Of a DNA stretch of 64,000 nt, positions 22,110 to 37,759 are shown piece after piece. A program made the position numbers and the translations under genes. Location: positions 124,001 through 188,000 of the forward strand of contig DASVBS010000060.1 in the NCBI GenBank assembly GCA_036375715.1, written 5' to 3'. This stretch comes from Longimicrobiaceae bacterium. Its GTDB lineage: Bacteria > Gemmatimonadota > Gemmatimonadetes > Longimicrobiales > Longimicrobiaceae. Below the pieces are notes generated by a model. It was not told where the DNA came from, did no database searches, and saw only the letters and a list, made by a program, of their open reading frames with translations. The stretch's first letter is position 1; each line of letters opens with the position of its first letter.

Positions 22110-23073
22110 GGAGGACTGGACGGAGTTGACCGTTGAGGGGGAGAACGAGTCGCGCCTGGATGCGTACCTGGCCGGCCGGCTTCCCCTCTCGCGCTCGCGC
22201 GTGGCACAGCTGATCGAAGAGGGGGCGGTTCTGCTCAACGGACATGTCCCTCGCAAGCGGGACATACCCGCTCCGGGAGACCGGATCTCCATCCGAATTC
22301 CCCCTCCCGAACCCTCACCGCTCACGCCCGAGCCCATACCGTTCGATATTCTCTACCAGGACACCGACCTGCTCGTGATCGACAAGCCCGGGGGGCTCGT
22401 CGTGCACCCCGCGCCCGGACACCGGGGCGGTACGCTGGTCAACGCCCTGCTCCACGAGGTGGGCGACCTCTCCGGGATCGGGGGCGTGCTCCGGCCCGGG
22501 ATCGTGCACCGGCTGGACAAGGACACCTCCGGGTTGATGCTGGTGGCCAAGAATGACGAGGCGCACCGGAGGCTCGCCGACGAGCTTCGGCAGCGGCGGA
22601 TAATCCGGCTCTACGTGGCAGCCGCCTGGGGCCACCTTCCCGCGGAGGAGATGACCACGGACGCTCCGATCGGACGTCACCCGACCGATCGGAAGCGGAT
22701 GGCGGTGGTCGAGGGCGGACGGCGTGCTGTGACCCATTTCCGGGTGCTGGAGCGCTGGCGCGCCGCGGATCTGGTGCGCGCGCGCCTGGAGACCGGGCGG
22801 ACCCACCAGATCCGCGTCCACCTGGCGCACCTGGGCCATCCCGTTGTCGGCGATCCGGTTTACGGCGCCGCGCGGGAACGGGGATTTTCGGGACCGGCCC
22901 GTGCCTGGGCGCAGGAGTTCGCTCGTCGGGTGCCACGGCAGTTTCTCCACGCCACCGAGCTGAGGTTCGTTCACCCCCGAAGCGGAGAGGAGATGAGGTT
23001 CGTTTCCGAGCTTCCTGATGAACTGGCTCGCGCCGCGGAATGGGCGCGTGGGGGGACTCGTGCCGTCGACTGA
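22099..23073 (+). CDS. rluD: RluD-type 23S rRNA pseudouridine synthase
   Basis: Isomerises uridines in large-subunit rRNA. An S4 RNA-binding domain (about residues 15-75, SRLDAYLAGRLPLSRSRVAQLIEEGAVLLNG) precedes the RluA-type catalytic domain. The catalytic aspartate lies in PGIVHRLDKDTSGL, then GRTHQIRVHLAHLGHPVVGDPVYG. The 324 residues are normal. The ATG overlaps lspA by 11 bases. Substrate sites (RluD or RluA/C-like) cannot be fixed from sequence alone. Confidence 0.94.
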   Translation: MANEEDWTELTVEGENESRLDAYLAGRLPLSRSRVAQLIEEGAVLLNGHVPRKRDIPAPGDRISIRIPPPEPSPLTPEPIPFDILYQDTDLLVIDKPGGLVVHPAPGHRGGTLVNALLHEVGDLSGIGGVLRPGIVHRLDKDTSGLMLVAKNDEAHRRLADELRQRRIIRLYVAAAWGHLPAEEMTTDAPIGRHPTDRKRMAVVEGGRRAVTHFRVLERWRAADLVRARLETGRTHQIRVHLAHLGHPVVGDPVYGAARERGFSGPARAWAQEFARRVPRQFLHATELRFVHPRSGEEMRFVSELPDELARAAEWARGGTRAVD

Positions 23074-23650
23074 AGCGCAGCAGGCGCGGGCCGACCTGCT
23101 GTCGACGACGCCTTCGGACGCGTGGGACGAGGGCGCGGAGGATACGCTTGCCGGCGAGTCCCTGCGCCGCCTCCTGCTCGTTTCGCTGCAGGAAGAAGTT
23201 GTAGCGCTGCCCGCCGAGTTGGTCGTCGAGGTGCTCCCGGAGCGTATCTACGCCCACATTCCCGGCGCGCCGCGGCCTGTCGCAGGGGTGGCAAACCGGC
23301 GGGGGAGGATGCTCACCGTGGTGGATCTGGGAGTTGCCCTGGGCGGAGCGCCCACTACGGCGGCGGGCCATCGGGTCGTGGTCGTCGCGTTCCGGGGCAG
23401 GGAGATCGGCCTGGCGGTGCGTGACGTCCTGCAGTTTGCCACCGACTGGTGGAGTCAGGCGCAGGCGGAGGCGCTGGAGGACGAAGGCATGTTGGCCGCC
23501 GTCGAGGAGGGGAGTGGTGCGGGCGGCGATCTCGCGGCTGGAAGTGGCGGAGACGAGCAGCTCCGCGTCATCGAAGTAGAATCCGTGCTCGCACCTCTCT
23601 TTGGCGGCGAGGATCACGGCGTCGGGGAACCAAGCGAAGGAAGAACATGA
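23018..23650 (+). CDS. cheW: CheW-domain chemosensory coupling protein
   Basis: First gene of a 14-gene chemosensory operon; it should couple a receptor to CheA. A single CheW-like domain runs from about residue 50 to the end with LLLVSLQEEVVALPAELVVEVLP, PGAPRPVAGVANRRGRMLTVVDLG, VVVVAFRGREIGLAV and a long acidic insertion (about residues 150-185). The conserved NxRG-type pattern appears as NRRGRML. ATG at 23018 overlaps rluD by 56 bases; GTG at 23060 gives a smaller overlap and may be the true start. The stop is coupled to cheY through ATGA. Confidence 0.88.
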   Translation: MNWLAPRNGRVGGLVPSTEAQQARADLLSTTPSDAWDEGAEDTLAGESLRRLLLVSLQEEVVALPAELVVEVLPERIYAHIPGAPRPVAGVANRRGRMLTVVDLGVALGGAPTTAAGHRVVVVAFRGREIGLAVRDVLQFATDWWSQAQAEALEDEGMLAAVEEGSGAGGDLAAGSGGDEQLRVIEVESVLAPLFGGEDHGVGEPSEGRT

Positions 23651-24009
23651 GCTCGACCGTACTCATCTGTGACGACGCCATCTTCATGCGGACGATGATC
23701 GGCGACATCCTGCGCCAGGCAGGCTTCGAGGTGGTTGGCGAGGCCGAGAACGGCCAGCAGGCAGTCGAAAAGTACCGCGAGCTGCGGCCCGATCTCGTCA
23801 CCATGGACATCGTGATGCCCGACATGGGCGGGATCGACGCCGTGCGCGAGATCATTCGCGACGACCCCAAGGCCAAGATCCTGATGTGCAGCGCGATGGG
23901 GCAGCAGGCGCTGGTGATCGAAGCAATCCAGGCCGGCGCCCGCGACTTCGTGGTCAAGCCGTTCCAGCCTTCACGGGTGCTCGAGGCGGTCCAACGGGTG
24001 CTCGCCTGA
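23647..24009 (+). CDS. cheY: CheY-like response regulator
   Basis: A 120-residue stand-alone receiver domain, expected to be phosphorylated by the CheA encoded 25 bases downstream. D9 and D10 form the acidic pocket, D54 (in VTMDIVMPDMGG) is the phospho-acceptor, S82 and K104 (in DFVVKPF) complete the active site. No output domain is fused, so it must bind another protein, for example a motor or a PATAN (DUF4388) domain as in cyanobacteria. Which target it has is unknown. Confidence 0.95.
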   Translation: MSSTVLICDDAIFMRTMIGDILRQAGFEVVGEAENGQQAVEKYRELRPDLVTMDIVMPDMGGIDAVREIIRDDPKAKILMCSAMGQQALVIEAIQAGARDFVVKPFQPSRVLEAVQRVLA

Positions 24010-24034
24010 GCTTCCCGCCCGGTATCCGGGGACG

Positions 24035-25957
24035 ATGGACCCGTCGCGGTACAGCGAGCTCTTCCATTCCGAGGCACGAGAGCACCTCGGAACGCTGACG
24101 CGGCTCCTGCTCGAGCTGGAGCGCGACCCGGAGCGCCCGGGAGTGGTGGAGCAGCTCTTCCGGTCGGTCCACACGCTGAAGGGCTCCTCGGCGGCGATGG
24201 GGTACCAATCGGCGAGCGAGGTGGCGCATGCGCTCGAGGAGCTGCTCGCCCGACTGCGCCAGGGATCCCTCGCCATCGGCCCCACCACCATCGACCTGCT
24301 CCTGCAGGGCGCCGACGCTCTCGAGCGGGCCATCGAGCACCCGGAGGAGGGTGCCTCGGCGGTGGTGCTGGACCGGCTCGCGGCATATGTAGAGGCTGGC
24401 GCCCCAAGCCGGACTGCGGCCCCAGCGAGCTCGGCGGGGCCAGCCGCCACTCCGGATTCCGGTGCTCCCACGTCGGCTGGACCCGCTCACCGGGTCAAGG
24501 TTCGGCTGGAGAGCGACACAGCGCTTCCCGCCGTGCGGGCGACGCTGGTCCTGCGCGCCGCGCGCTCCCTCGGCGAGGTGTCGCAGATCCAGCCGCCGGA
24601 GGCCTCGATCCTGGCCGGCGAGCTGCAGGGCCCGTTCGCCTTCGTCATCCACGGCGAGGCGACGCCTGAGCAGATCGAGGCGGCGGTGCGCTCGGCGGGT
24701 GAGGTGGCGGAGGTGGAGGTCAATCCCCTCGCCACGACCGAGGGCGAGCCGGAACGCACCCGACCTCGCGAAGATCGGACGCCGCGGCTCGGACCGATCG
24801 TTCGGGTGCCCCAGAGCCGTCTGGACGCGCTGGTGGACCAGGTCGGCGAGCTGATCATCGCGCGGGATCGTCTGCGGAGGACGGTCGCTGAACCGGCGGA
24901 GGCGGATCCGGAGCTGGCCGAGTCGCTGGAGGGCGTCTCCCGCCTCATCGACGATCTCCGCGAGGAGATCATGCGCCTGCGCATGGTCCCGGTGGGGGAG
25001 GTGTTCGACCGCTTCCCGCGCATGGTGCGCGATGCTGCGCGGCGGCTTGATCGACGGGTCGAGCTGGAGATCAGCGGCCGGGAGGAGGAGGTCGACCGCG
25101 GGCTGCTCAACGAGGTGGCGGATCTGCTCGTCCACCTGCTTCGGAACGCCGTCGACCACGGCATTGAGCCACCGGAAGAGCGGGAGAGAGCGGGCAAGCC
25201 ACGCGTCGGCCGCATCCGGCTCTCCGCCATCCGGGAGGCTTCGATGGTGCGGATCGAGGTCGCGGACGACGGGCGGGGGCTGCAGCGCGAGCGGATACTG
25301 GCCACGGCCGTGAAGCGCGGGCTCATCGAGGCGCCGGATCGACACCTCAGCGACCAGGAGATCTGGGCGCTGCTCACCACGCCAGGATTCTCCACCAGCG
25401 AGCGGGTGACCGATGTCTCGGGGCGCGGGGTGGGCCTCGACATGGTCCGGACCAGGGCGCAGGCGCTCGGTGGCAGCCTGGAGGTGCGCAGCGAAGCCGG
25501 GAAGGGAGCGACCTTCACCCTGCGCATCCCGCTTTCACTTACGCTGGTGCGGGCGCTGCGCTTCGAGGCCGGAGGAGCGTACTATTCCGTCCCGCTCTCC
25601 GGGGTGGTGGAAGTGGCGGAGCTGGTCGACTATGATGGGCACTCGCTCCAGGTGCGCGGTGAGACGCTCCCCGCCCTGGACCTGCGCGTCCTCTTCGCGG
25701 GCGGCTCGGGTTCACCAGGTCGGGAGAATGTGGCTGTCGTGGTGGTTGAGTTCGGCGGTGAAAAGGCAGGGTTGATCGTGGCGGCTCTGGAAGGACAGCA
25801 TCAGGCCGTGGTGAAGCCGGTCGATCTCCCGGAAGGGGCTCTGCCCATCTTCGGTGGTGCGACCATCCTGCCGGATGGTCGCCCCTCGCTCATCCTCGAT
25901 CCGGCCAGGACCGTCGCGTTCGCGACGGGGCGGGCGGATCTCTCTGCCAGGGCTTGA
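24035..25957 (+). CDS. cheA: Chemotaxis histidine kinase CheA
   Basis: Histidine kinase of the chemosensory array. The HPt domain (residues 1-110) has phospho-histidine H46 in HTLKGSSAAMG. A P2-like domain spans about 150-235 and a dimerisation helix pair about 265-325. The ATPase domain has LLRNAVDHGIEPPEERERAGKP (N box), VADDGRGL and GRGVGLDMVRT (G boxes). A CheW-like regulatory domain ends the protein (about 500-635). At 640 residues nothing is missing. It would phosphorylate the CheY encoded next to it, and it is bracketed by CheW, CheC and CheD genes. Confidence 0.96.
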   Translation: MDPSRYSELFHSEAREHLGTLTRLLLELERDPERPGVVEQLFRSVHTLKGSSAAMGYQSASEVAHALEELLARLRQGSLAIGPTTIDLLLQGADALERAIEHPEEGASAVVLDRLAAYVEAGAPSRTAAPASSAGPAATPDSGAPTSAGPAHRVKVRLESDTALPAVRATLVLRAARSLGEVSQIQPPEASILAGELQGPFAFVIHGEATPEQIEAAVRSAGEVAEVEVNPLATTEGEPERTRPREDRTPRLGPIVRVPQSRLDALVDQVGELIIARDRLRRTVAEPAEADPELAESLEGVSRLIDDLREEIMRLRMVPVGEVFDRFPRMVRDAARRLDRRVELEISGREEEVDRGLLNEVADLLVHLLRNAVDHGIEPPEERERAGKPRVGRIRLSAIREASMVRIEVADDGRGLQRERILATAVKRGLIEAPDRHLSDQEIWALLTTPGFSTSERVTDVSGRGVGLDMVRTRAQALGGSLEVRSEAGKGATFTLRIPLSLTLVRALRFEAGGAYYSVPLSGVVEVAELVDYDGHSLQVRGETLPALDLRVLFAGGSGSPGRENVAVVVVEFGGEKAGLIVAALEGQHQAVVKPVDLPEGALPIFGGATILPDGRPSLILDPARTVAFATGRADLSARA

Positions 25958-25979
25958 ACACGCGCAAGGACGCGGAACG

Positions 25980-26597
25980 ATGATCGAGATCCAGGACCTT
26001 CAGGAGCTGCAGCTCGACGCACTGCGCGAAGTGGCGAGCATCGGCGCCGGACATGCCGCCACCGCCCTGTCGCAGATGACCGCTTCGCGTATCATGATCA
26101 GCGTGCCGCGGCTGCAGATCGCCCGGCTCGAGGAGATCCCCGAGCTGATCGGCACGGCCGACGCGGTGGTGGCCACCGTGCTCATGCACGTGCTCGGCGA
26201 TGTCACCGGGCGGACGCTGCTGGTGCTCCCCGAGAACGCCGCGCAGCGTCTCTCCGAGCGCCTTCTCCGCCGTGCCACCGGAACGGTGAAGGAGTTCCGC
26301 GAGGTGGAGCAGTCCGCCCTGAAGGAAACTGGCAATATCCTGTGCGCGGCTTATCTGAATGCCCTGTCGGATTTCATGGGGCTGATGCTGCTCCTCTCCG
26401 TGCCGATCCTGGTCATCGACCAGTGCGGCGCGGTGCTTACCAGCGCTTACATCGAGTTCGCCCAGGCACAGGATTTCGTGTTCAGCATCGAGACGCAGTT
26501 CACCCTGGGAGAGGGTGATCCGGTGGCCGGTCACTTCCTGCTCCTGCCTGATCTACCCTCGCTCCAGGTCATCTTGAAGTCAATCCGGCTTGCCTGA
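25980..26597 (+). CDS. cheC: CheC-like CheY phosphatase
   Basis: Dephosphorylates CheY-P. CheC proteins hold two ExxN phosphatase sites. Here the second, LKETGNILCAAYLNALSDFM, has the intact E and N. The first, LREVASIGAGHAATALSQM, keeps E but has S in place of N, so it is probably inactive. Length 205 is normal. CheC normally works with CheD, whose gene is 9 kb downstream in the same operon. The TPR gene start overlaps its last codons. Confidence 0.9.
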   Translation: MIEIQDLQELQLDALREVASIGAGHAATALSQMTASRIMISVPRLQIARLEEIPELIGTADAVVATVLMHVLGDVTGRTLLVLPENAAQRLSERLLRRATGTVKEFREVEQSALKETGNILCAAYLNALSDFMGLMLLLSVPILVIDQCGAVLTSAYIEFAQAQDFVFSIETQFTLGEGDPVAGHFLLLPDLPSLQVILKSIRLA

Positions 26598-29289
26598 CGT
26601 GCCGCCTTCTGTACCGACGCCGGTCTCTCCGCCCCCTCTGTCGGAGCGGGATCGTAAGATCCTGCTCGGGCTCGCCGCGAGGATCGACCCGGGGGACTCG
26701 GGGGCTCACAACAACCTGGGTGTCCTCTACTTCAACAAGGGAATGCTGGATGAGGCGGTCATCCAGTTCCAGCGCGCGCTCGAGATCGACCCGCGGATGC
26801 AGGTGGCGCAGCGGAACCTGGAGATCGCCTATTTCAACACCGGATACTACCACCGCCTGATCCGCGAGCTGTCCGAACGGCTCGCTACGGCACCGGACGA
26901 CACCGCCGCGCGCCGACGGCTGGCCCGCGCCTACCTGAGCACCGGCGACCACGCCGCAGCGGCGAGGGAGCTGAGCTATATCCTGGCGGAGACGCCGAAC
27001 GACCTCCAGACCCTCCTGGAGCTGGGCAGGGTGGAAAAGGAGGCAGGCCGGTATGACGCCGCGCTGGTGTGGCTCCGCCGCGGGATCGAGCTCGATCCGG
27101 GAAGCGGCGTTTTTCGATTTCACCTCGGCGAGCTGGAGTATCACCGGGGCATGCTGGCGGAAGCCCGTGAGCACCTCGAGCAGGCCATTCGCATCCTCCC
27201 CGACTTCGCGGATGCGTATCACCTCCTGGCTTTCGTGCTGGGGGACCTGGGAGAGGACGGAGCCGCCGCGGAGGCCGCCGAACGCGCGCGGCAGCTGAAT
27301 CCAGCGCTCAGCCGGGCGGAAACGAATCTCTCGCTCGACCATTACAACCCCGCGCACTACGGCGAGCTGGTGGGGAATCGCGATGCCCGCCCGGACGTGG
27401 TGCAGAGCGGATACCTGGCGGGCTACCACCTCGGCATCGCGTATCGGCAGCGTGGCCTCTACGCGGAGGCGCTACGCGAGCTGGAGCGGGCTCTGGCGGC
27501 GGGCGAGGACACGGGGCTGGTGCGACAGGCCATCGCGGAGGTCCGCCTTGTCCGCGGAGAGGTCGAGGAGGCGGCCGCCCTCTATCGCGAGCTGCTGAAG
27601 GGAGATCCGCACAGCCCGAAGCTGCTGAACGAGCTCGGCGTGGCTCTGCATCGCCAGGGCAACACCGCCGGGGCGGAACGCTGCTACCGCCGCGCCCTGG
27701 AGGCGGATCCCGAGTACGCGCTCGCCTGGAACAACCTCGCGGTGGTGCGGATGCACCGCGGTGACGCGGCGGCCGCCGGGGAATGTCTCGCCCGCACGGT
27801 CGAGCTCAGGCCCCGCCTGATGGACGGTTGGTTCAATCTGGGGTTGCTGGCGGAGCAGACTCGCCGTTTCCCGCAGGCGCTGCGGGCGTACCGCGCGGGT
27901 ACCGAGGCCGATCCGAACGCACTGGCAGCGTGGATCGGGATCGGACGGGTACTGAGCGAGATGGACCGCTTCGCCGAGGCTCGCAATGCCCTCGCGCGAG
28001 CGGTGGAGATCGATCCCGATTCCGCGGCGGCCCGATACCACCTGGGCTTCGTGCTGGCACGGTTGGGGGAGTACGACGCGGCGCGCCGGGAGACGGAGCG
28101 TGCGCTCGCACTCGATCCGTATTACCCCGCGCCGCGCTACCGCCTCGCCATCGACCTGCAGTTCGAGTTCACCGAGGTGTTGGCGCCGGAGCTGGACGTC
28201 GCCTCTCGGGTCGCAGCCGGAGAGGCGGTTCCGACCTTCGACTTCGACGCCGCGGAGCTGGCACACGCTTTCAGCGCGCTCCAGTCTCCGAGAGCGGCGG
28301 AGCCTCCACCCGCTGCCGCGGAGGAGGATCCCTTCCGCCTGGCGAGGGACTACCTGAGCAAGGGGTTGCTGGCCCGTGCTGCCGCAGAGGTTCGCCGACT
28401 CGTGGCCCAGGGCGCCGAACCGGTGGAGGCAGCCCTGCTGGCGGCCGAGATTCTGATGGGGCAGGGGTACTTCGGCGAGGCGCTGGAGCGCTACGACTCT
28501 GCCCTGGTGCGGCTCGAGGACCGACCCGGCGACCCGCGCTTGGGCCGCATCTGGCTGGGGCGCGCCGAAGCCCTGTTGCGTCTGGGTCGTGCTGCCGATG
28601 CGCATCAGGCCGCACGGCAGGCGGAGGCATACGCGGGCGCCGAAGCTGAAGCACTGCGCAGCCATGGCGAGGCGTACCTGCTCGAGCGGAAGGCGGGTGC
28701 GGCAGTGGAGGCGTTCCGTAAGCTCACCACTCTGCGGCCCGAGGATCCCACGCCGTGGCGCGAGCTCGGCGCCGCCCTGCGGCTCGCCGGCGACCTGAGA
28801 GGCGCGGAGGAAGCGCTCGACCGCGCCCTCACGCTCGATCCCGACTTCGTGGCGGCGCGGGTGGAGTTGGCGGAGGTCCTGCTGCAACAGGGGCGCGAAG
28901 AGGAAGCTGCGGCAATGAGCGAGACTGCGCTCGAGGTACTGCCGGGCTACCCCGACGCAGCCATGCTGCTGGCGGAGGTTCGTCGGCGGCAGGGCCGTCA
29001 TCCCGAGGCGGTCGACCTGATGGTCGATCTGCTCAGCCGCGACGCCTACCACCTCTCCGGTCTGCTCGCGCTGGGGCGAATCCTGGAGGAGTGGGGCCGA
29101 AGGGACGATGCGATCCACGCCCTGCGACGCGCGGTGCGCCTCGATCCGAACTTCCGCGAGGCCGTAGCGGAGCTGGAGCGGCTCGAGGTGCTGGCGGGAG
29201 AAGACGCACCGGGCACGTGGGAAGGAAGGGAGCCGGTCGCGGCGACTTCGACCACCCCGGGGTCCGACGCGCGCTGCGCGCGGGACTGA
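26590..29289 (+). CDS. Large TPR-repeat protein
   Basis: An 899-residue cytoplasmic protein composed almost wholly of tetratricopeptide repeats (about 20), e.g. AHNNLGVLYFNKGMLDEAVIQFQRALEIDP, with recurring W/LG/Y/A and terminal DP positions. There is no signal peptide or membrane segment. A break around residues 525-580 (acidic and P-rich) separates two TPR blocks. TTG at 26590 or GTG at 26599 may start it. It lies inside the chemosensory operon and is most likely a scaffold for its signalling proteins, but no partner can be named from sequence. Confidence 0.85.
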   Translation: MPDVPPSVPTPVSPPPLSERDRKILLGLAARIDPGDSGAHNNLGVLYFNKGMLDEAVIQFQRALEIDPRMQVAQRNLEIAYFNTGYYHRLIRELSERLATAPDDTAARRRLARAYLSTGDHAAAARELSYILAETPNDLQTLLELGRVEKEAGRYDAALVWLRRGIELDPGSGVFRFHLGELEYHRGMLAEAREHLEQAIRILPDFADAYHLLAFVLGDLGEDGAAAEAAERARQLNPALSRAETNLSLDHYNPAHYGELVGNRDARPDVVQSGYLAGYHLGIAYRQRGLYAEALRELERALAAGEDTGLVRQAIAEVRLVRGEVEEAAALYRELLKGDPHSPKLLNELGVALHRQGNTAGAERCYRRALEADPEYALAWNNLAVVRMHRGDAAAAGECLARTVELRPRLMDGWFNLGLLAEQTRRFPQALRAYRAGTEADPNALAAWIGIGRVLSEMDRFAEARNALARAVEIDPDSAAARYHLGFVLARLGEYDAARRETERALALDPYYPAPRYRLAIDLQFEFTEVLAPELDVASRVAAGEAVPTFDFDAAELAHAFSALQSPRAAEPPPAAAEEDPFRLARDYLSKGLLARAAAEVRRLVAQGAEPVEAALLAAEILMGQGYFGEALERYDSALVRLEDRPGDPRLGRIWLGRAEALLRLGRAADAHQAARQAEAYAGAEAEALRSHGEAYLLERKAGAAVEAFRKLTTLRPEDPTPWRELGAALRLAGDLRGAEEALDRALTLDPDFVAARVELAEVLLQQGREEEAAAMSETALEVLPGYPDAAMLLAEVRRRQGRHPEAVDLMVDLLSRDAYHLSGLLALGRILEEWGRRDDAIHALRRAVRLDPNFREAVAELERLEVLAGEDAPGTWEGREPVAATSTTPGSDARCARD

Positions 29290-29292
29290 CCT

Positions 29293-30429
29293 ATGGCCTT
29301 CGAGGGTCCGCTGCGTGAGCTCGCGCTCACGGACGTCATCCAGCTCCTGTACCTCTCGCGTAAGACCGGAACGCTGTCGATTACCGGCGAGGGAGCGCCA
29401 CGCCCGGGGCTGATCCACTTCGACGAGGGGTTTGTCGTCGGCGCGCGATCGGCGGGAGAGATCAGTCCGCTGGGTCGCCTGCTGGTGATGGCGGGAAAGG
29501 CCACCATGCGCCAGGTTGAAGCCGCCCTGGAGGCCCAGCGGCGGGAACCGGGGCGTCGAATCGGCACTCTGCTGGCGGAGACGCAGGGCATCCCGGTACG
29601 TGACATCCAGCGCCAGCTCCGCTTTCAGGTGGAGGAGGCGGTTTTCGAGCTGGTCCGCTGGCGCGACGGCCACTTCCGCTTCGAGGAGACCGAACGGCCG
29701 CAGAACGGGGGAATCCCCGTTCGGATCCCCTCGGAAGCGCTGCTCATGGAATCCATGCGGCGTGCCGACGAGTGGACGGAGATGGCGAGCGGCGATCCCG
29801 ACGCATCGCTGGTCCCCGCGTTGGTCGACAGCGCTGCCGGAGCGGCCGGGGTGCTCGACCTGCAGCCGCGGGAATGGCAGGTACTGGCCGCGATCGACGG
29901 TTCGCGCACACTGCGCGAGATTGCCCGAGAGATCGGGCGCGCGGAGTTCGACGTGGCCAAGGCTGTGTACAGCCTGGCGTCGGGAGGCGTGGTCGAGCTG
30001 AAGACCCGTCCCTCCGCTCCGCGCCCCGGCGCCAGGCGCGACCCCTCGAGCGCAGCCGTCGACGGCGTGGAAGCGGAGCTACGTGCGGAAAGGATCGGCG
30101 AGGCGCTCCGGCGGGCAGAAGGACTGCGCGAGAGCCACCCGGCGTCGGGCGTCGCCAGGCTGCTGTACGGGCGCGCGCTGGTCGCCTCTGGAGAGATCGA
30201 GCGGGGCGTTGCAGCGCTGAAGGAGGCTGTGCAACTGGATCCGCTCCTTGCGGCGGGATACTTCCACCTGGGAATGGCCGCGGCTCGCCTGGGCGATTTC
30301 GGGCGCGGGCGGGAGAACCTGACCACCTTCTCGCGCCTGCCCGATGCCCCGCCGAGGGACGTCGAGATCGCGATGCGTGCGGTGCAGCTCATGACGGAGC
30401 TCAGCGCGCTGCTGGAGGAGATTCGATGA
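29293..30429 (+). CDS. DUF4388 (PATAN) domain protein with TPR tail
   Basis: A 378-residue protein. The N-terminal DUF4388/PATAN domain (about residues 1-150) starts MAFEGPLRELALTDVIQLLYLSRKTGTLSI and includes the GLIHFDEGFVVGA segment typical of the family. A winged-helix-like middle (REIAREIGRAEFDVAKAVYSLASGGVVEL, about 205-240) and two TPR-like repeats follow. PATAN domains occur with CheY-like regulators, so it may be a phospho-CheY effector. A second such protein is encoded 3 kb downstream. The stop couples to the next gene through ATGA. Confidence 0.82.
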   Translation: MAFEGPLRELALTDVIQLLYLSRKTGTLSITGEGAPRPGLIHFDEGFVVGARSAGEISPLGRLLVMAGKATMRQVEAALEAQRREPGRRIGTLLAETQGIPVRDIQRQLRFQVEEAVFELVRWRDGHFRFEETERPQNGGIPVRIPSEALLMESMRRADEWTEMASGDPDASLVPALVDSAAGAAGVLDLQPREWQVLAAIDGSRTLREIAREIGRAEFDVAKAVYSLASGGVVELKTRPSAPRPGARRDPSSAAVDGVEAELRAERIGEALRRAEGLRESHPASGVARLLYGRALVASGEIERGVAALKEAVQLDPLLAAGYFHLGMAAARLGDFGRGRENLTTFSRLPDAPPRDVEIAMRAVQLMTELSALLEEIR

Positions 30430-31367
30430 CATCACAGATCGAGGCACAGCGCGTCCGACGCTGGCAGGAAGAGGTCGCCAGGGACCCCGGCAGCCCCTCC
30501 TTTCTCCCCCTGGCGGAGGTCTATCGGAAAGAAGGGCGCCTCGCCGTGGCCCTGCGCCTCTGCGTGCGCGGGCTCGAGCGCAACCCCGATCACGTGGAGG
30601 GGCACGTCCTGCTCGGCCGCATCTATCGGGAGTTGGGGGAGCCCGAGCCCGCCTGCGACGAGCTGGACATCGCGTTGCGCCTCGATCCGGAGCATCGCTC
30701 GGCGCGCCGGGCGCTCGGCTATCTCTACCTGGAACGGAGGATGTGGGCCGAGGCAGTCCGGCACCTGGAGATCGCCGCCGAGCACGACCGGCACGATCCG
30801 CGGCTGGCCAGCGCGTTAGCCCTGGCCCGGCGAAATCTTTCCGCGGAAGGTCCACCGGCGCCGGCCCCGCACGCCCTCCAGGAGGCGCTCGATCGCTTCG
30901 CGCGGGGGGCGCGTGTTCGCCTGGCGCTGTTGATGGAGAGCAACGGCCGAATTCTGGCGCGGCACGGTAGCGCCGAGGGGATCGATCTGGCGGCGCTCAC
31001 CACGCTCGGGGCCGGCATCCAGTCGGCTTCACGCGAGATTGCCCGCATGCTGGGGCAGCGACAGTTCGAGCAGCTGTACCAGGGGCAGGGGGATCGCCAG
31101 CTATTTCTGGCGCCGATACCCACGCCCACCGGCGAACTGATCCTGGTGGCGTTGTTCGGTCGATCCACCAACGTGGGCCTCGTGCGCGTGCGCTTCGACG
31201 AGATGCTGCGCGAATGCGCGGAGCACGACTGGACGTCTGCGCAATCGGGCTCGGCGCGAGACGCGGCCGCCTTCGAGGCGCATCTCGCGTCCGGCCTGGG
31301 GTTGCACGGAGAGCGGGACGCGGCTGCCTCAGGTGGTGGCCGCGGCGTGCCCCCTAACTCCGCCTGA
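30426..31367 (+). CDS. TPR and roadblock/LC7 domain protein (MglB-like)
   Basis: A 313-residue protein with N-terminal TPR repeats (about residues 15-130) and a C-terminal roadblock/LC7 domain (about 145-265: HALQEALDRFARGARVRLALLMESNGRILARHG...GELILVALFGRSTNVGLVRVRF). Roadblock proteins of the MglB type activate MglA GTPases, and an MglA gene follows immediately, with a 5-base gap. It is therefore probably the GAP or regulator of that GTPase, with the TPR part linking to the scaffold. The start ATG overlaps the previous stop as ATGA. Confidence 0.85.
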   Translation: MTSQIEAQRVRRWQEEVARDPGSPSFLPLAEVYRKEGRLAVALRLCVRGLERNPDHVEGHVLLGRIYRELGEPEPACDELDIALRLDPEHRSARRALGYLYLERRMWAEAVRHLEIAAEHDRHDPRLASALALARRNLSAEGPPAPAPHALQEALDRFARGARVRLALLMESNGRILARHGSAEGIDLAALTTLGAGIQSASREIARMLGQRQFEQLYQGQGDRQLFLAPIPTPTGELILVALFGRSTNVGLVRVRFDEMLRECAEHDWTSAQSGSARDAAAFEAHLASGLGLHGERDAAASGGGRGVPPNSA

Positions 31368-31371
31368 GACC

Positions 31372-31983
31372 ATGTCCCTGGTCAACTATTCGACCCGCGA
31401 AATCACCTGCAAGATCGTCTACTACGGTCCGGGTCGATCGGGCAAGACCACGAATCTGCAGCACATCCACAGTCTCCTTCCGGAGGAGACCCGTGGCCGC
31501 ATCGTGTCGCTGGCGACGGAGATGGACCGGACCCTCTTCTTCGACTTCCTCCCTCTCGATCTGGGTAGGATCTCGGGATTTCAGGTCCGCTTCCAGCTCT
31601 ATACCGTTCCGGGCCAGGTCTATTACGACGCCACGCGGCGGCTGGTGCTGCAGGGGGCGGACGGGGTAGTCTTCGTCGCGGATAGCCAGCCGGGGCGGCA
31701 GCAGGACAATGTGGAGAGCTTCCGCAACCTGCAGGAGAACCTGCTCCGGCAGGGAGTCGACCCGCGCGCGGTGCCCGTCTGCATCCAGTACAACAAGCGC
31801 GATCTGCCCGATGCAATGCCGATCGCGACCATGGAGCGAACCATCAACTACCGGGGCGTGCGGTCACTGGGGGCGTCGGCTACGACGGGGGAAGGGGTGC
31901 TCGAGACGCTGAAGTGCGTTTCCGAGCTGGTGCTGGCCGGGCTCGCCGCAAGGTTCCAGAGTCCGGAAAGCCTGGCGCGATGA
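31372..31983 (+). CDS. mglA: MglA-type small GTPase
   Basis: A Ras-like GTPase of the MglA family that sets cell polarity and motility in myxobacteria. P-loop GPGRSGKT is at residues 19-26. The switch segment TVPGQVYYDATRRLVLQGADGVVFVADSQ is characteristic of MglA, and NKRDLP gives guanine specificity. The 203-residue length fits. ATG at 31372 gives MSLVNYSTREITCKIVYYG, the standard N-terminus. Its gene follows a roadblock protein (putative GAP) and precedes a DnaA-like ATPase, all within the chemosensory operon. Confidence 0.94.
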   Translation: MSLVNYSTREITCKIVYYGPGRSGKTTNLQHIHSLLPEETRGRIVSLATEMDRTLFFDFLPLDLGRISGFQVRFQLYTVPGQVYYDATRRLVLQGADGVVFVADSQPGRQQDNVESFRNLQENLLRQGVDPRAVPVCIQYNKRDLPDAMPIATMERTINYRGVRSLGASATTGEGVLETLKCVSELVLAGLAARFQSPESLAR

Positions 31984-31989
31984 CAAGCG

Positions 31990-33192
31990 ATGCCGACCCC
32001 TCTCGATCCTCGCTGCAGCTTCGAGCGCTTCATCGTCGGCCCGGCGAATCGAGTTGCGGCCGCGGCGGCAGTTCGCGCAGCGGAGGCACCTGGGCGGATC
32101 TACAATCCTCTGGTCATTGCCGGCGCTCCGGGGCTCGGCAAGACCCACCTGCTGATGGCGATCGGGCAGCGCGCGCGCATGTTCGACGCCGAGCTTCGGG
32201 TCCACTACGAGACGGGTGAGGAGTTCGTCGACCGTGTGACCGCCGCCCTCGCGGCGGGCACTCTCGAGGCCTTCCGCGCCGCCATGGCCAGCGTGGACCT
32301 GCTTCTCCTGGACGGCCTCGATCAGGTCGCCGGTAAGGGGCGGACTGAGGAAGAGCTCCTCCGCCTCGCGGGCGAGATGCTCGGGCGTGGGCGACAACTG
32401 GTGATCGCCTCGGAGGCCCCTCCCGCCGCGATCCCCCACCTGCACCCTTCCCTCCTGGAGCGGGTCAGCGGCGGGCTCAATGTCGAGATCGCTTCTCCCG
32501 ATCCGGCGACTCGCCGCGCCATCGTCACGCGCCTCGTCGCCAATCGCGACCAGCCATTTCCGGAGGCCGTGACCGCGGCCCTCACGCAGCTCCCGCTCGC
32601 CAGCGTGCCGGCAATTCAGGAGGCGGTCGATCGCCTGCTGGCGGTCGCAGACCTCGAGGGACGCGAGGTTCGGCTGGAGGACGTCTCCCGCGTGGCCACC
32701 ATGACGCCGCACGTCGTTCAGGCCGACGAGTTCGACGACTTCCTCGCGGACATCTCCACGGCAGTGGCTGCGGTGGTGGAGACGGCGCCGTGGAGACGCC
32801 GGCTTGCCGAAGCGATCCTCCGTTGGGAGGGGGAGGGGATCTGCACCCGCCGGCTCGAGGCCGCACTCGATGCCGATTCCGCGCCGGACGTCGAGGCGCT
32901 GCTGACCTCCTTCGGGCGCGACGTCGGGCGCCTCCGGCGCATCGCCCGCGAGCTCCCGCCCGGGGTGGCGGTAGATCCGCTCCTCTTACGGGATCCGGAT
33001 CGGCTCCAGGAGGCGGAGCGGCTGCTCGCCGAGAACGCCCCGACGGCAGCCGGATCCGATCGGCCCGGCGCGGTCCGACGCGCGGCGGCCGGATTGCCCC
33101 GCGATTCCTTCGATCGCTGGTTCCTGGATCGCGAGAAGCTCGCCTGGGACTGGCTCGCTCTGGATGACCGGATCGTGGAGGAGCAGCGCTGA
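31990..33192 (+). CDS. DnaA-like AAA+ ATPase without DNA-binding domain
   Basis: A 400-residue protein whose first 240 residues match the DnaA ATPase domain: FERFIVGPANRVAAAAA, Walker A GAPGLGKT at 45-52, a Walker B LLLLDGLDQVAG, and the ERVSGGLNVEI box. The acidic residue after the Walker B aspartate (DD in DnaA) is G, and the sensor-2 arginine region reads ASVPAIQEAVDRL without the usual R. There is no C-terminal helix-turn-helix. The last 160 residues form an unrecognised helical tail. It is not a replication initiator; a polar localisation or switch role near the MglA GTPase is an inference. Confidence 0.83.
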   Translation: MPTPLDPRCSFERFIVGPANRVAAAAAVRAAEAPGRIYNPLVIAGAPGLGKTHLLMAIGQRARMFDAELRVHYETGEEFVDRVTAALAAGTLEAFRAAMASVDLLLLDGLDQVAGKGRTEEELLRLAGEMLGRGRQLVIASEAPPAAIPHLHPSLLERVSGGLNVEIASPDPATRRAIVTRLVANRDQPFPEAVTAALTQLPLASVPAIQEAVDRLLAVADLEGREVRLEDVSRVATMTPHVVQADEFDDFLADISTAVAAVVETAPWRRRLAEAILRWEGEGICTRRLEAALDADSAPDVEALLTSFGRDVGRLRRIARELPPGVAVDPLLLRDPDRLQEAERLLAENAPTAAGSDRPGAVRRAAAGLPRDSFDRWFLDREKLAWDWLALDDRIVEEQR

Positions 33193-34826
33193 TGGCTATA
33201 CGGGGAAACCTGCGCGAAGTGGGGCTGCCGGACGTGCTGCAACTCCTGGCGCTAGGGCAGAAGACGGGCTGCCTGTCGGTAACCGATCGCTCCAATCTCG
33301 GATACATCTACTTCGAGCGCGGGCACATCACCTACGCCTCCATCGTCAACCGGCGGGACCGCCTCGGAGACCTGCTGGTCAAGAATGGGCTGGTGGACCC
33401 GGAGGAGCTCGCCGCCGCAGTCGAGATTCAGACTACGCGCAGCGGAGTCCGGCTGGGCGAGATCCTGGTCGAGCGCGGTACCATCACCCGAGAGCAGCTC
33501 GAGCGTTACATCCGCCTGCAGATCGAAGAGGCGGTGTACACTCTGTTCACCTGGACCCAGGGCGCGTTCACCTTCGAGCCGGACCAGCAGCCAGAGGAGT
33601 GGACGCTGCGGGTCTGGATCAACCCCGAGAGCGTACTCCTGGAGGGGGCTCGTCGGGTCGACGAGTGGTCGCTGATCGAGAAGAAGATCCCTTCACTGGA
33701 TATCATCTTCTCCCCCACCGACCGACTCGTGGAAAGTGCCCAGATCGATTTCTCGTCGGAACAGCGCGCGATCCTGCCCCTGCTCGACGGTACGCGCAGC
33801 GTACAGGACATCGTCGACGAGTCGGGTCTGGTGGAGTTCGACGTCGGCAAGGCGGTATTCGGGCTGATCCAGGCCGGCCTGGTGCAGGCCACCGGGCGAA
33901 AGCAGAGCAAGCCTCCGGCGTCCGCAGCGACCCGGACCCAGGAGCACCGCAACCTCGGGATCGCCTTCTACCGAACGGGCATGTTGGAGGAGGCGCGGCG
34001 GGAATTCGAGCGCGTACTCGAGAGACTCCCCGACGACCTTCCGGCCCGCTTCTATATCGGGCTGATTTCCTTGCGTTCGGGTGACGCGCGGAGCGCTTTC
34101 CGTCAGCTCAAGGGGGTGATCGAACAGGGCGGGCGATGGGGCTCGGCCTTCTTCAACCTGGCGCTCGCGCTGGAGATGCTCGGCCGGGTGGACGGTGCGC
34201 TGCTGGCGGTGGACGAGGGATTGCGATTGCTGCCAGACTACCCGCCGGCACTGCTCTCCCGAGCGATTCTACTCGCCAAGGCGGAGCGGCTGGGGGAGGC
34301 CGTAGAGGCCTTCCGCGTGTACCGGGCGTCGGTGGGTGAACACGATCGTCCCGCCCCTTCCTTCTTCGCCTTCGCGGCCCTGGCGGAAGCGGCCGTCGGG
34401 CGTCCGGAGCTGGGTCGACAGCTCGCCGAGGAAGGTATGCGCCTCTATCCGCACATTCCGGAGCTGATTCTGCACCTGGGAGCTCTGCGGGAGCGGGCGG
34501 GTGTGGCGGAGGAGGCCGAAGTCTTCTACCGGCGGGCCGTGGAGGAGGCGCCGGAGCTCCCGCAGGCGCGGAAGGCGCTGGGCGACGCCCTGTATCGCCG
34601 GGGAGCGTACGAGGAGGCCACCGAGCAGTACCGCCGCGCGATCGAGCTCAGACCGGAGCTCGGCGACGACGTCTACCTGAAGCTCGGCAACATCGCCTAT
34701 AAGCAGGGGGAGCGCGGAGAGGCGGTCGGGCTGTGGACGCGGGCGTTGGAGCTCAATCCGGAGAACGGGATCGCCCGCACCAACCTGGAGCTGGTGCAGC
34801 GTGTGCTCGCGAGCAGTCCCTCATGA
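33192..34826 (+). CDS. DUF4388 (PATAN) domain protein with long TPR region
   Basis: A 544-residue protein with N-terminal DUF4388/PATAN (about 1-160: MAIRGNLREVGLPDVLQLLALGQKTGCLSV, YIYFERGHITYASI). A winged-helix-like segment follows (about 190-235: RSVQDIVDESGLVEFDVGKAVFGLIQAGLV). About seven TPR repeats make up the rest. It is closely related in layout to the DUF4388 protein encoded upstream, suggesting duplication. The start shares a base with the preceding stop and the end couples to cheR (ATGA), so the operon is continuous. Confidence 0.84.
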   Translation: MAIRGNLREVGLPDVLQLLALGQKTGCLSVTDRSNLGYIYFERGHITYASIVNRRDRLGDLLVKNGLVDPEELAAAVEIQTTRSGVRLGEILVERGTITREQLERYIRLQIEEAVYTLFTWTQGAFTFEPDQQPEEWTLRVWINPESVLLEGARRVDEWSLIEKKIPSLDIIFSPTDRLVESAQIDFSSEQRAILPLLDGTRSVQDIVDESGLVEFDVGKAVFGLIQAGLVQATGRKQSKPPASAATRTQEHRNLGIAFYRTGMLEEARREFERVLERLPDDLPARFYIGLISLRSGDARSAFRQLKGVIEQGGRWGSAFFNLALALEMLGRVDGALLAVDEGLRLLPDYPPALLSRAILLAKAERLGEAVEAFRVYRASVGEHDRPAPSFFAFAALAEAAVGRPELGRQLAEEGMRLYPHIPELILHLGALRERAGVAEEAEVFYRRAVEEAPELPQARKALGDALYRRGAYEEATEQYRRAIELRPELGDDVYLKLGNIAYKQGERGEAVGLWTRALELNPENGIARTNLELVQRVLASSPS

Positions 34827-35638
34827 TCAAGGACGATGATCCGGAGCTGGAGCAGTTGAAGCGGAAGATCCAACGCGAGCGAGGCTTCAACTGCCACCTC
34901 TACAAGGACAAGTGCTTGCGGCGGCGCATCGCGGTGCGGATGCGCGCGCGTGGGGAGAGCACGTACGCCGGGTACGCCGCCCTTCTGGACCGGGACGCGG
35001 TAGAGTACGAGCAGTTGCTGGACGCGCTCACCATCAACGTCACCAAGTTCTTCCGCAACCAGGAGATGTGGGCGGTCCTGGAAGAGGAAGTGATCCCCCG
35101 GCTCTTCGAGGGTGCCCCGGAGCCGCGGCGGATCTGGAGCGCGGGGTGCGCCAGCGGCGAGGAGATCTTCTCGGCTTCCATCCTCCTCCACGAGTGGGCG
35201 GCGCGATTCGGCCGCACCGCGGAGCTGGAGCGCTTCGACCTGCTCGGAACCGACATCGACCGCCGCAGCCTGGACGCGGCGCGGCGCGGCAGCTTTCCCG
35301 AGCTCTCCATGGGCGAGATGCCAGCCGCCTACCGGGAGCGCTGGTTCTCGCCCGGGCCGCCCTACCAGCTCGATGCCCGCATCCAGGAGCGCGTCCGCTT
35401 CGAGCACCGCGACCTCATCTCGGGCGAGCCCGAGCGGGAGCAGCATCTGATCTTGTGCCGCAACGTGATCATCTACTTCGACCGCGGCATCCAGGAGAAG
35501 ATCTTCGACCGCTTCTACGAAGCCCTGGTTCCAGGCGGTTTCCTGGTATTGGGCAAGGTGGAGACCCTCCTGGGCCGAACACGCTCGCTCCTGCGCCCGG
35601 TCAGCAACCGCCAGCGGATATTCTGGAAACCGGAGTGA
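34823..35638 (+). CDS. cheR: CheR-type receptor methyltransferase
   Basis: S-adenosylmethionine-dependent methylation of receptor glutamates for adaptation. The all-helical N-terminal domain (about residues 5-70) has YKDKCLRRRIAVRMRARG and ends TINVTKFFRN. The SAM-binding core has IWSAGCASGEEIFSASILL, and LILCRNVIIYFDRGIQEKIFDRF follows. The 271-residue length is standard. Its presence implies methylated receptors, yet no methyl-accepting protein and no CheB methylesterase are encoded in the operon. Confidence 0.95.
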   Translation: MIKDDDPELEQLKRKIQRERGFNCHLYKDKCLRRRIAVRMRARGESTYAGYAALLDRDAVEYEQLLDALTINVTKFFRNQEMWAVLEEEVIPRLFEGAPEPRRIWSAGCASGEEIFSASILLHEWAARFGRTAELERFDLLGTDIDRRSLDAARRGSFPELSMGEMPAAYRERWFSPGPPYQLDARIQERVRFEHRDLISGEPEREQHLILCRNVIIYFDRGIQEKIFDRFYEALVPGGFLVLGKVETLLGRTRSLLRPVSNRQRIFWKPE

Positions 35639-36123
35639 ACAGTCCCTCCATCTTCGTCGGGGTCGCGGAGGCCGCGGTAGCCGCCGGAGAGGAGGTGCTG
35701 GTTACCGTGGGACTGGGGTCGTGCGTGGCCATCCTGCTCTACGATGCCGACGTCCGGGTAGCGGGGATGGCGCACGTCTTGTTGCCGGCTCCGCACCGCG
35801 CCTTCGAGGAGAGCCAGGCCGCCAAGTACGCGACCACGGCGGTCCCCCACCTGCTGCGCGAGATGTCGGCGCGCGGTGCCGATCGGCGGCGGGTCACCGC
35901 GCGGATCGTCGGGGGTGCCTCGATGTTCTCCGGCCCCCGCAGCTCCCCGCTAGCCTCGGCCGGAGCGCGCAACCTCGAAGCGACCCGCGATGCCCTGGAG
36001 TGGGCTGGCGTCCCCGTCACCGGCGAAGAGGTCGGCAGCGACCACGGACGCTCCGTCCGCCTCTTCGCCGCCGACGGACGGGTGGTGGTGAGCTCGTACC
36101 GACGCGGAGACGTGATACTGTAG
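35635..36123 (+). CDS. cheD: CheD receptor glutamine deamidase
   Basis: Deamidates receptor glutamines and binds CheC. The catalytic cysteine C30 is in VTVGLGSCVAILLYD, the histidine H47 in AHVLLPAP, and GGASMF is the third signature; all three are intact. The 162-residue length is normal. A GTG start overlaps the cheR stop as GTGA. The 8-copy heptamer array of repeat element C starts 28 bases after its stop. Confidence 0.94.
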   Translation: MNSPSIFVGVAEAAVAAGEEVLVTVGLGSCVAILLYDADVRVAGMAHVLLPAPHRAFEESQAAKYATTAVPHLLREMSARGADRRRVTARIVGGASMFSGPRSSPLASAGARNLEATRDALEWAGVPVTGEEVGSDHGRSVRLFAADGRVVVSSYRRGDVIL

Positions 36124-36150
36124 GGATGACGAATCAAGAATGCAGGCACT

Positions 36151-36417
36151 ACGAATTACGAATTACGAATTACGAATTACGAATTACGAATTACGAATTA
36201 CGAATTAGTCGCGGCAATTTTGCATTTTGAATGACGCAGCGGCCATCCCGGTCGTCTTGCCATAGCCTGAGTCGGTCGCCGCGCTTCCGTTGTCTGTTTT
36301 TCAGTCGGCCGAACTTCCGGTTGCGTAATCTACAACTCATAATCCGCTACCTATAACCCGTAATTCGTAATTCGTAATTCCTGCCGCCCGCCGCACTAAT
36401 TCAGAATTTTAAATTCC
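36151..36417. repeat. Paired inverted heptamer arrays, element C
   Basis: Left: eight perfect head-to-tail copies of ACGAATT (36151-36206), followed by AATTTTGCATTTTGAATG of the element-A type. Right: three perfect copies of CGTAATT (36359-36379), the inverted form, then another AT-rich AATTC block (36397-36417) just before the cheW-like gene. The spacer between arms is about 150 bases. The element splits the operon between cheD and the second CheW-like gene. Confidence 0.85.
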
Positions 36418-36422
36418 AGCCG

Positions 36423-36815
36423 ATGCGTCTGCTCACCTTTTCGCTCGCGGAGACCGTCCACGCGGTGGAGCTGTCCACCGTGGAGGGGGTGGCGCGTTGG
36501 GAGGAGGTCGAGGGGCGCGGGCTGCCGTTGTTGGACCTGGCGCGGTGGCTCGGGTATGGGGGAGAGGAGGATCGGCAGGAGGGGCGGGCCCCGGTGCTGG
36601 TGCTGCAGGCTGGCGGGCGACGGGCGCTGATGCGGGTCGACCGATCCGGTGAGGTACTCGAGGTGGCTACGGACGCCGCCCGGGATCCGCCGGAGATCTT
36701 TCCGCGCCACCTGTTGAAGGGGGTGATCGAGCACGGGGGTGGACTGGTGGTGTGGCTCGACGGAGAGGCCCTGGTTCAGGAGGCCTGGAGGTCGGCCCGA
36801 GAGGAGCCGGCATGA
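36423..36815 (+). CDS. Short CheW-like protein
   Basis: A 130-residue, rather divergent CheW-like domain. It starts MRLLTFSLAETVHAVELSTVEGVARW, has LPLLDLARWLGYGGEE and APVLVLQAGGRRALMRVDRSGEVLEV, and ends in a short basic tail. Compared with the first CheW it lacks the insertion. It may compete for CheA or serve a different array. It follows repeat element C after 5 bases and couples to the next TPR gene through ATGA. Confidence 0.78.
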   Translation: MRLLTFSLAETVHAVELSTVEGVARWEEVEGRGLPLLDLARWLGYGGEEDRQEGRAPVLVLQAGGRRALMRVDRSGEVLEVATDAARDPPEIFPRHLLKGVIEHGGGLVVWLDGEALVQEAWRSAREEPA

Positions 36816-37759
36816 CTGCCGCGGATTATCTGCGGGACCGCTACGAGACGCTGGTGCGCGAGGTCGAACGGCTCGATCGATCGACCCCGGCCGAGCAGCG
36901 GAGCGAGCTCCGGCGACGAATCATCGACCTGTACCACGAGGTGGATGCTGCTGCCGCGCGCCTGCTCGAGTTACGTGAGTCCGTGCAGGAGCTGGGTGAG
37001 CGCTACCGAAGCTCCGTCGCCTCGATCGTGACGATTGCCGCATCCGGGTCGACCGACGCCGCTCAACCAGCGGACGGTTCCGCGCTCGCCCGGGCCGACG
37101 ATCTGGACGTGTCGACGTATCTCGACCGTGCCTGGAACCGGTTGGCCAGCTGCCGGTACGAGGATGCCCTGGCCGAGGTGAACCGGGCGCTCGAGAGGGT
37201 GCCGGGCAGCGAGGATGCCGCAACTTTGCGCGGGTGGGCTCTGATGCGGCTGGATCGGCTCGAGGAGGCGCGGCAGGCACTCGAGTCGGTGCTCCGCCTG
37301 AACTCCTCTGCGGCGCTGGCACGGGCGAGTCTCGGATACGTGGCTCTACGGGAGGGTCGATTCGCCGAGGCGCTGGAGCATCTCTCCCTCGCCGCGCGGG
37401 ACGCCACGGATCGCAAGGCAGTGCTCTATGCCCATCTCTATCTGGGGATGCTCTACACGCGCCGTGCCCTCTACCGCGACGGCCGCGGTTTCCTGGCACG
37501 GGCGCTCGAGCTGGGGCCCTCGCTGGTGGAGGCCTACTGGGAGATGGGGCGATCGTACTACCTTGAAGGCCAGTTCACGCAAGCGTTGGAGACTTGGCGC
37601 CGCGGCGCCGAGGTGAACCGCTTCGACCCGTGGGGAGAGCGATGCCAGGAAGCGGTCGAGCGGGCGGAGGCGGGTGCGCCGCTTCCGCTCGGATGGGAGG
37701 CCGAGCGGGCCGCCCCGGCATCGTCACCCGATGGCGTGGCCCGCTCCGAGCGGCCGTAG
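36812..37759 (+). CDS. TPR protein with coiled-coil N-terminus
   Basis: A 315-residue cytoplasmic protein. Residues 1-70 are helical and charged (YLRDRYETLVREVERLDRS, then a heptad-rich part), a linker follows, and residues about 105-280 hold four or five TPR repeats such as ALLRGW/ALMRLDRLEEARQALESVLRLN. The C-terminal end is P- and A-rich. As last gene of the operon it overlaps the downstream peptidase gene. Function beyond protein-protein contact is unknown. Confidence 0.8.
   Translation: MTAADYLRDRYETLVREVERLDRSTPAEQRSELRRRIIDLYHEVDAAAARLLELRESVQELGERYRSSVASIVTIAASGSTDAAQPADGSALARADDLDVSTYLDRAWNRLASCRYEDALAEVNRALERVPGSEDAATLRGWALMRLDRLEEARQALESVLRLNSSAALARASLGYVALREGRFAEALEHLSLAARDATDRKAVLYAHLYLGMLYTRRALYRDGRGFLARALELGPSLVEAYWEMGRSYYLEGQFTQALETWRRGAEVNRFDPWGERCQEAVERAEAGAPLPLGWEAERAAPASSPDGVARSERP

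Follow-up and report, generated by a model that had tools for sequence, protein, structure and literature searches.

DnaA-type ATPases are known for starting and regulating replication and for aiding transposons. In Synechocystis, PATAN response regulators bind PilB1 (PMC9090330, PMC7690835), and operons that bring MglA and MglB together with PATAN genes have been described (PMC4316618). Here we describe a locus in which a protein related to DnaA is encoded directly before a PATAN-TPR protein, within a chemosensory operon. The DNA analyzed, referred to as the window, is a stretch of 64,000 nucleotides from a member of the Longimicrobiaceae, and the features of the locus are collected in Table 1. 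We call the protein DnaAL and its PATAN-TPR neighbor PATAN2. Based on sequence comparisons, we propose with moderate confidence that DnaAL is a dedicated partner subunit of PATAN2 in a c-di-GMP/chemosensory module that controls type IV pili.

Table 1. Features of the DnaAL locus, in window coordinates
Feature	Position	Strand	Basis
CheW, CheY, CheA (chemosensory core)	23018..25957	+	sequence and conserved order, no Pfam run
CheC/CheX-type phosphatase	25977..26597	+	Pfam
Large TPR protein of the operon	26590..29289	+	Pfam-level search
PATAN-TPR paralog PATAN1	29293..30429	+	DUF4388, E=5e-29
TPR and Roadblock/LC7 (MglB-like) protein	30420..31367	+	Robl_LC7, 27.3 bits, cut-off 23
MglA-type small GTPase	31363..31983	+	Pfam; adjoins DnaAL in f1, f2, f4, f5, f6 and f9, not in f3
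DnaA-like protein DnaAL, 400 aa	31990..33192	+	ORF, Pfam/NCBIfam, 66 aligned homologs, AF2 model (pLDDT 86)
AAA+ domain D1, residues 1-240, DnaA domain III fold	31990..32709	+	Pfam, alignment, structure
Helical linker, residues 241-352, motifs WEGEGxxTRRLE and LRDPDRxxEAE	32710..33045	+	alignment, model
First linker helix, residues 247-265, one of two segments retained in micro-proteins	32728..32784	+	model, micro-protein comparison
Conserved C-terminal motif DRWFLDREKLAWDWLALDDRIVEEQR; family consensus WFLSREKVVWDWPDLEDRLIEELR	33112..33189	+	homolog alignment
PATAN(DUF4388)-TPR protein PATAN2, start overlapping the DnaAL stop; constant partner of DnaAL	33192..34826	+	Pfam, neighborhoods
MshEN-like c-di-GMP motif, an insert at residues ~54-108 within the PATAN domain of PATAN2	33351..33515	+	NF053729; PDB sequence matches
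CheR, CheD, CheW	34733..36815	+	CheR and CheW by Pfam; CheD by sequence and conserved order

DnaAL and its relatives

The DnaAL reading frame opens with ATG a few nucleotides past the mglA stop and is unbroken; its stop codon is shared with the start of PATAN2 in the sequence TGATG (33190-33194). Residues 5-165 match Bac_DnaA (PF00308; E=1.3e-38, 133 bits, cut-off 23), and the modeled residues 3-239 superimpose on domain III of Bacillus subtilis DnaA (8btg) over 237 residues with Z 31.3 and 1.5 A; the alignments behind the structure models drew on the window and genome-contig loci only. The original prediction of a DnaA AAA+ core over residues 1-240 is thus borne out. Does DnaAL then act in replication? 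Over residues 3-236 the DnaA profile TIGR00362 scores 176.5 bits against an equivalog cut-off of 343.9, and the Hda profile TIGR03420 scores 64.7 bits against 194.8. DnaAL is distinct from DnaA, because its equivalog score is half of the cut-off, it has neither domain I nor domain IV, and a full-length DnaA is encoded separately in the genome of the window (G000:C6). Neither Bac_DnaA_C nor any other DNA-binding Pfam family is detected in the protein or its tail, and the homologs end instead in an EKxxWxWP motif. The tail (residues 241-400) gives zero Pfam matches up to E=10, helix-turn-helix and other DNA-binding families included, and a profile of the linker finds no PDB sequence better than E=0.055 and no Pfam homolog. 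The AF2 model places helices at 247-348, with pLDDT mostly around 90 or more, followed by disorder at 353-376 and two short helices of low confidence, in keeping with the helical tail lacking a helix-turn-helix that had been foreseen. In 40 neighborhoods, with genes assigned by similarity to those of the window, no dnaN or Hda-type context appears. An Hda-like or second-DnaA role in replication was rejected on scores, missing domains and neighbors, and the view that DnaAL is not a replication protein is supported.

In the window copy Walker A (GAPGLGKTH, residues 45-54) is intact and the arginine finger is R158. Walker B reads LLLLDGLD, in which D108 is followed by G109 in place of the second acidic residue, and the sensor-2 stretch is SVPAIQEAV, compared with (N)VRELxGAL in DnaA, with P207 at the arginine position. 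Given that Walker A is intact, Walker B broken and sensor 2 missing, this domain probably binds ATP and hydrolyzes it poorly or not at all. Both lesions had been predicted from the window alone; comparison with 66 homologs changes their emphasis. All 66 first domains have an intact Walker A and 65 keep the second acidic Walker B residue, G109 being the lone exception, and sensor-2 erosion is mainly confined to the family of the window (f1, which includes Longimicrobium). In nearly all members from families f2-f6 and f9, D1 retains Walker A, Walker B, the arginine finger and sensor 2, and the same motifs are intact in most second AAA+ domains (D2) of f4, f5 and f6. Since Walker A and B are preserved in nearly all relatives and the erosion of sensor 2 is largely an f1 trait, the window protein is not the type form; it is a shortened, degraded member of a family in which the ATPase is otherwise largely intact, and loss of catalysis falls away as the family's defining trait.

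Many of the 249 Gemmatimonadota genomes surveyed hold the DnaAL family alongside their own DnaA; the search also picks up true DnaA, so its tally is not a family count. The usual form is 570-690 residues long, with two DnaA-type AAA+ domains joined by a helical linker and the same C-terminal motif, whose consensus across the family is EKxVWxWPxxxDRLIEEL. The second AAA+ domain is recognized by Pfam with E=4e-39 in L016, and structure agrees. In a domain tree D1 (27 rows), D2 (17 rows) and true DnaA (13 rows) form three separate clades with D1 and D2 nearest to each other, which suggests that the tandem most likely has a single origin, early in the family, in the AAA+ domain of a DnaA. On this single-origin reading, f1 and f9 would have lost D2. 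The DNA-binding domain had been thought lost from the window protein; as a recent change this does not hold, since the family as a whole is without domain IV and D2 sits at its place in the common form. The window protein has the features by which the family is recognized, namely a D1 in the clade apart from DnaA, the helical linker, the EKxxWxWP motif and an adjoining PATAN-TPR gene, and its full-length identity to f1 relatives is 40-54%, linker and C-terminal motif included. Scanning genome contigs with the linker profile recovered 34 Gemmatimonadota loci and one chance match in Vineibacter; the scan is pattern-based and distant relatives would escape it. So far, the family has been found only in Gemmatimonadota.

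The PATAN2 partner and a natural deletion series

Full-length PATAN2 is present in 23 of 23 genomes with DnaAL and in 0 of 36 without it (59 genomes; Fisher p 7e-17, with kinship ignored). Wherever the sequence upstream of an insert-bearing PATAN-TPR gene is readable, a DnaAL-family gene lies directly upstream, usually 0-50 nt off. The insert, of about 55 residues, scores 53.2 bits with NF053729 (cut-off 38) and matches the MshEN sequences of solved PilF, PilB and MshE in the PDB (E 5e-7 to 3e-5). NF053729 is above cut-off in most PATAN2 orthologs tested, L048 and L090 being the exceptions. The window thus encodes a PATAN protein with a c-di-GMP motif inside a chemosensory operon. PATAN1 has a weaker MshEN-like match of 31.4 bits, below the cut-off of 38, and may hold a degenerate c-di-GMP site.

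Which parts of DnaAL are indispensable to the pair? Family f5 offers a natural deletion series. L160 retains the AAA+ part and the C-terminal motif, with the linker gone; L157 and L164 retain the linker and the C-terminal motif, with AAA+ gone and the PATAN2 insert kept. At 13 loci from three genera all that is left is a protein of 60-75 residues, composed of the first linker helix (GEFxxFLxDI..) and the C-terminal motif (..EWPxxxDRxIEEL). This micro-protein lies directly before PATAN2 in 13 of 13 insert-less loci, and PATAN2 there is missing exactly the MshEN insert. In a PATAN2 tree built with the insert columns removed, the 12 of these 13 loci that were placed form one clade nested among AAA+-bearing members, which argues for joint loss of AAA+ and insert in one event, not thirteen. 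Of all DnaAL parts, it seems safe to say, the first linker helix and the C-terminal motif outlast the loss of the others, and because they survive the rest, they are a probable docking element on PATAN2; the series points to the short C-terminal motif in this role. A strict coupling of ATPase and c-di-GMP was also considered and is weakened by the L157/L164 clade, which lost AAA+ and kept the insert.

Might the AAA+ part nevertheless be the point of the protein? Tandem ATPases could form a helical or ring assembly, an active remodeling motor that builds up or takes apart the pilus or chemosensory machinery. Such a motor would be in line with the intact motifs noted above for D1 (nearly all members of f2-f6 and f9) and for D2 (most of those in f4, f5 and f6), and with the ability of DnaA to form ATP filaments. 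However, AAA+ domains have repeatedly been lost or have decayed (f1 and f9 are without D2, two f5 clades are without either domain, and Walker B and sensor 2 are degenerate in the window copy) with the C-terminal motif kept, and we regard a motor as unlikely. For a dedicated partner of PATAN2, as we propose, the AAA+ part would best be read as a dispensable nucleotide switch.

The operon of the window runs CheW, CheY, CheA, CheC, TPR, PATAN-TPR, TPR-Roadblock, MglA, DnaAL, PATAN2, CheR, CheD, CheW, TPR, peptidase, an order that is largely retained in f1, f2, f9 and at most f4/f5/f6 loci. The sequence MglA, DnaAL, PATAN-TPR had been read correctly from the window, and on its strength it was suggested that DnaAL may be a nucleotide-dependent scaffold, with MglA as the partner to check. 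Such a scaffold for MglA, to which the PATAN-TPR link is not essential, is in line with the position of mglA directly before DnaAL in the window and in the families listed for it in Table 1, and with the degenerate Walker B and sensor 2 of the window copy. Yet in f3 the locus consists of just DnaAL and PATAN2, flanked by RluD and the peptidase, with MglA and the Che genes absent, and the sole mglA of these genomes is a ~55%-identical paralog elsewhere; MglA in turn persists without an AAA+-bearing DnaAL, for example in G047, G069 and G101. The association of DnaAL with MglA is therefore not constant, that with the PATAN-TPR protein is, and we judge a scaffold for MglA to be quite unlikely. DnaAL may still be a nucleotide-dependent scaffold as such, with the tail and C-terminal motif as the scaffolding part, as AAA+ is wholly lost in some lineages in which the motif stays.

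Other elements accompany the operon. The peptidase-like gene downstream of it (37750-38742) encodes a HELVHLAL zinc-binding-type motif and stays downstream of PATAN2 in nearly all loci, those of f3 without Che and MglA included. Between cheD and cheW lie two perfect heptamer arrays, (TACGAAT)8.3 at 36150-36207 and (CGTAATT)3.1 at 36359-36380; the CGTAATT unit is a rotation of the reverse complement of TACGAAT, so that the arrays are oriented toward one another and might fold into a hairpin.

The window copy may also be a decaying gene heading for loss, whose degenerate motifs carry no functional message. Its Walker B D-to-G change is unique, its branch is the longest of f1 in the domain tree (0.91 versus 0.25-0.69), and the AAA+ part or the whole pair has been lost in other lineages. 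But the reading frame is intact with stop and start coupled, Walker A is kept, similarity to f1 relatives extends through the linker and C-terminal motif, and the PATAN2 partner is likewise intact, with about 61-63% identity to most of its f1 orthologs, so that decay appears improbable. A nucleic-acid-binding regulator that ties replication, RNA or DNA uptake to the pilus by means of retained DnaA residues is very doubtful: K116, R118 and T119 of the window protein align with the GKERT stretch, through which DnaA contacts ssDNA, D2 of f4/f5/f6 keeps this stretch in 19-21 of 22 and type IV pili can take up DNA, but the triad is present in 0 of 17 D1 domains in f3 and R118 in 0 of 22 in f4/f5/f6, domain IV is lacking, and no replication or competence genes were recognized in the neighborhoods examined.

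Co-occurrence with type IV pili

In f3, the best-sampled family, 18 of the 20 genomes that carry DnaAL also have PilB, scored by TIGR02538 over its cut-off, as against 1 of the 30 that lack DnaAL (Fisher p 2e-10, uncorrected, the genomes not being phylogenetically independent). This co-occurrence is strong within f3 only; outside f3, PilB is present in nearly all tested genomes with the DnaAL family, but also in some without it. As for the two f3 exceptions with DnaAL and without PilB, G161 has a broken locus, in which DnaAL stops after the linker and PATAN2 is without its PATAN domain, and the G234 genome is 88% complete in 830 contigs. Genera that differ internally follow the same pairing. 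In g28 (contrast set G163 versus G047, G190, G179 and G251), G163 has DnaAL, PATAN2 and PilB, and G047 and G190 have none of the three; in g33, G058 has DnaAL and PilB, and G060 is without PilB. The latter genome bears an in-frame scar (L186, 7639-8415) in which ~40 N-terminal residues of DnaAL are fused to the C-terminal 57 of PATAN2. Another remnant is found in the PilB-less G024, and in G267 the micro-protein is present and PilB is not over the cut-off.

GGDEF counts in f3 genomes are 4-9 with DnaAL versus 0-2 without. Six f3 genomes (G022, G024, G026, G030, G044 and G149) have no PilB over cut-off, MglA or GGDEF at the thresholds used, which suggests that type IV pili, MglA and c-di-GMP signaling were lost jointly in them. 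FliG is absent from 10 of the 17 tested genomes with an AAA+-bearing DnaAL; a flagellar output was rejected, as FliG does not track DnaAL.

Proposed role and comparison with known systems

How might DnaAL work as a partner of PATAN2? In the model that we favor, chemosensory and c-di-GMP signals would converge on PATAN2, and DnaAL would dock on it via its C-terminal motif and first linker helix. The one or two AAA+ domains, where present, would sit atop this docking element as a nucleotide-driven conformational switch or an oligomerization device, and switching would alter the way in which the PATAN-TPR protein is presented to the pilus machinery. The complex would then act on pilus extension. 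The extension ATPase PilB is the most plausible target, because PATAN regulators act on PilB1 in Synechocystis. In the window copy, from which D2 is gone, DnaAL may work as an ATP-occupancy sensor or as a plain structural arm. Tentatively, we speculate that the DnaA branch of AAA+ ATPases was recruited wholesale from replication into motility signaling, giving rise to a DnaA-derived tandem ATPase that gates type IV pilus extension under c-di-GMP/PATAN control; Gemmatimonadota would provide the first example, in which living intermediates span the range between a double ATPase and a docking peptide of 60 residues. If true, this would be a new use of the DnaA-type ATPase fold, in a setting of PATAN, c-di-GMP, chemosensory signaling and type IV pili, and would give a concrete entry to motility control in Gemmatimonadota, a common, little-studied soil phylum.

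The fold, that of DnaA domain III, and the type of context, PATAN control and MglA operons, are already known. In the literature searched, which leaves out most subscription journals, we found no account of their combination, of a tandem DnaA architecture, of the conserved C-terminal motif or of the erosion series, and papers on DnaA with PATAN, twitching, MglA or chemotaxis yielded no description of the DnaAL family. With DnaA domain III (B. subtilis 8btg/8bv3, T. maritima 2z4r, A. aeolicus 1l8q) DnaAL shares the fold (Z 27-31, 1.5-2.5 A), sequence homology, Walker A and the position of the arginine finger. It differs from DnaA in the absence of domains I and IV, in the Walker B D-to-G change and lost sensor 2 of the window copy, in the mostly tandem form of its relatives and in its operon. 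Hda is likewise a stand-alone DnaA-type AAA+ protein without a DNA-binding domain, but the structural match is lower (Z 18-21), and DnaAL has the additional linker and C-terminal motif and no replication context. The operons of PMC4316618 share MglA, an MglB-like Roadblock protein and PATAN genes with the window, and the text of that paper, when searched, nowhere mentions DnaA. In Pil-Chp of Pseudomonas aeruginosa (PMC12632253) a chemosensory system is joined by c-di-GMP effectors that act on PilB at the pole, with neither DnaA nor PATAN mentioned. The common point with PixE, PixG and LsiR of Synechocystis is a PATAN domain tied to chemosensory or light signaling and to an ATPase of the pilus system (PMC7690835, PMC9090330); here, in contrast, PATAN is fused to TPR and carries an MshEN-like insert, and the ATPase-type protein linked to it is derived from DnaA and is not PilB.
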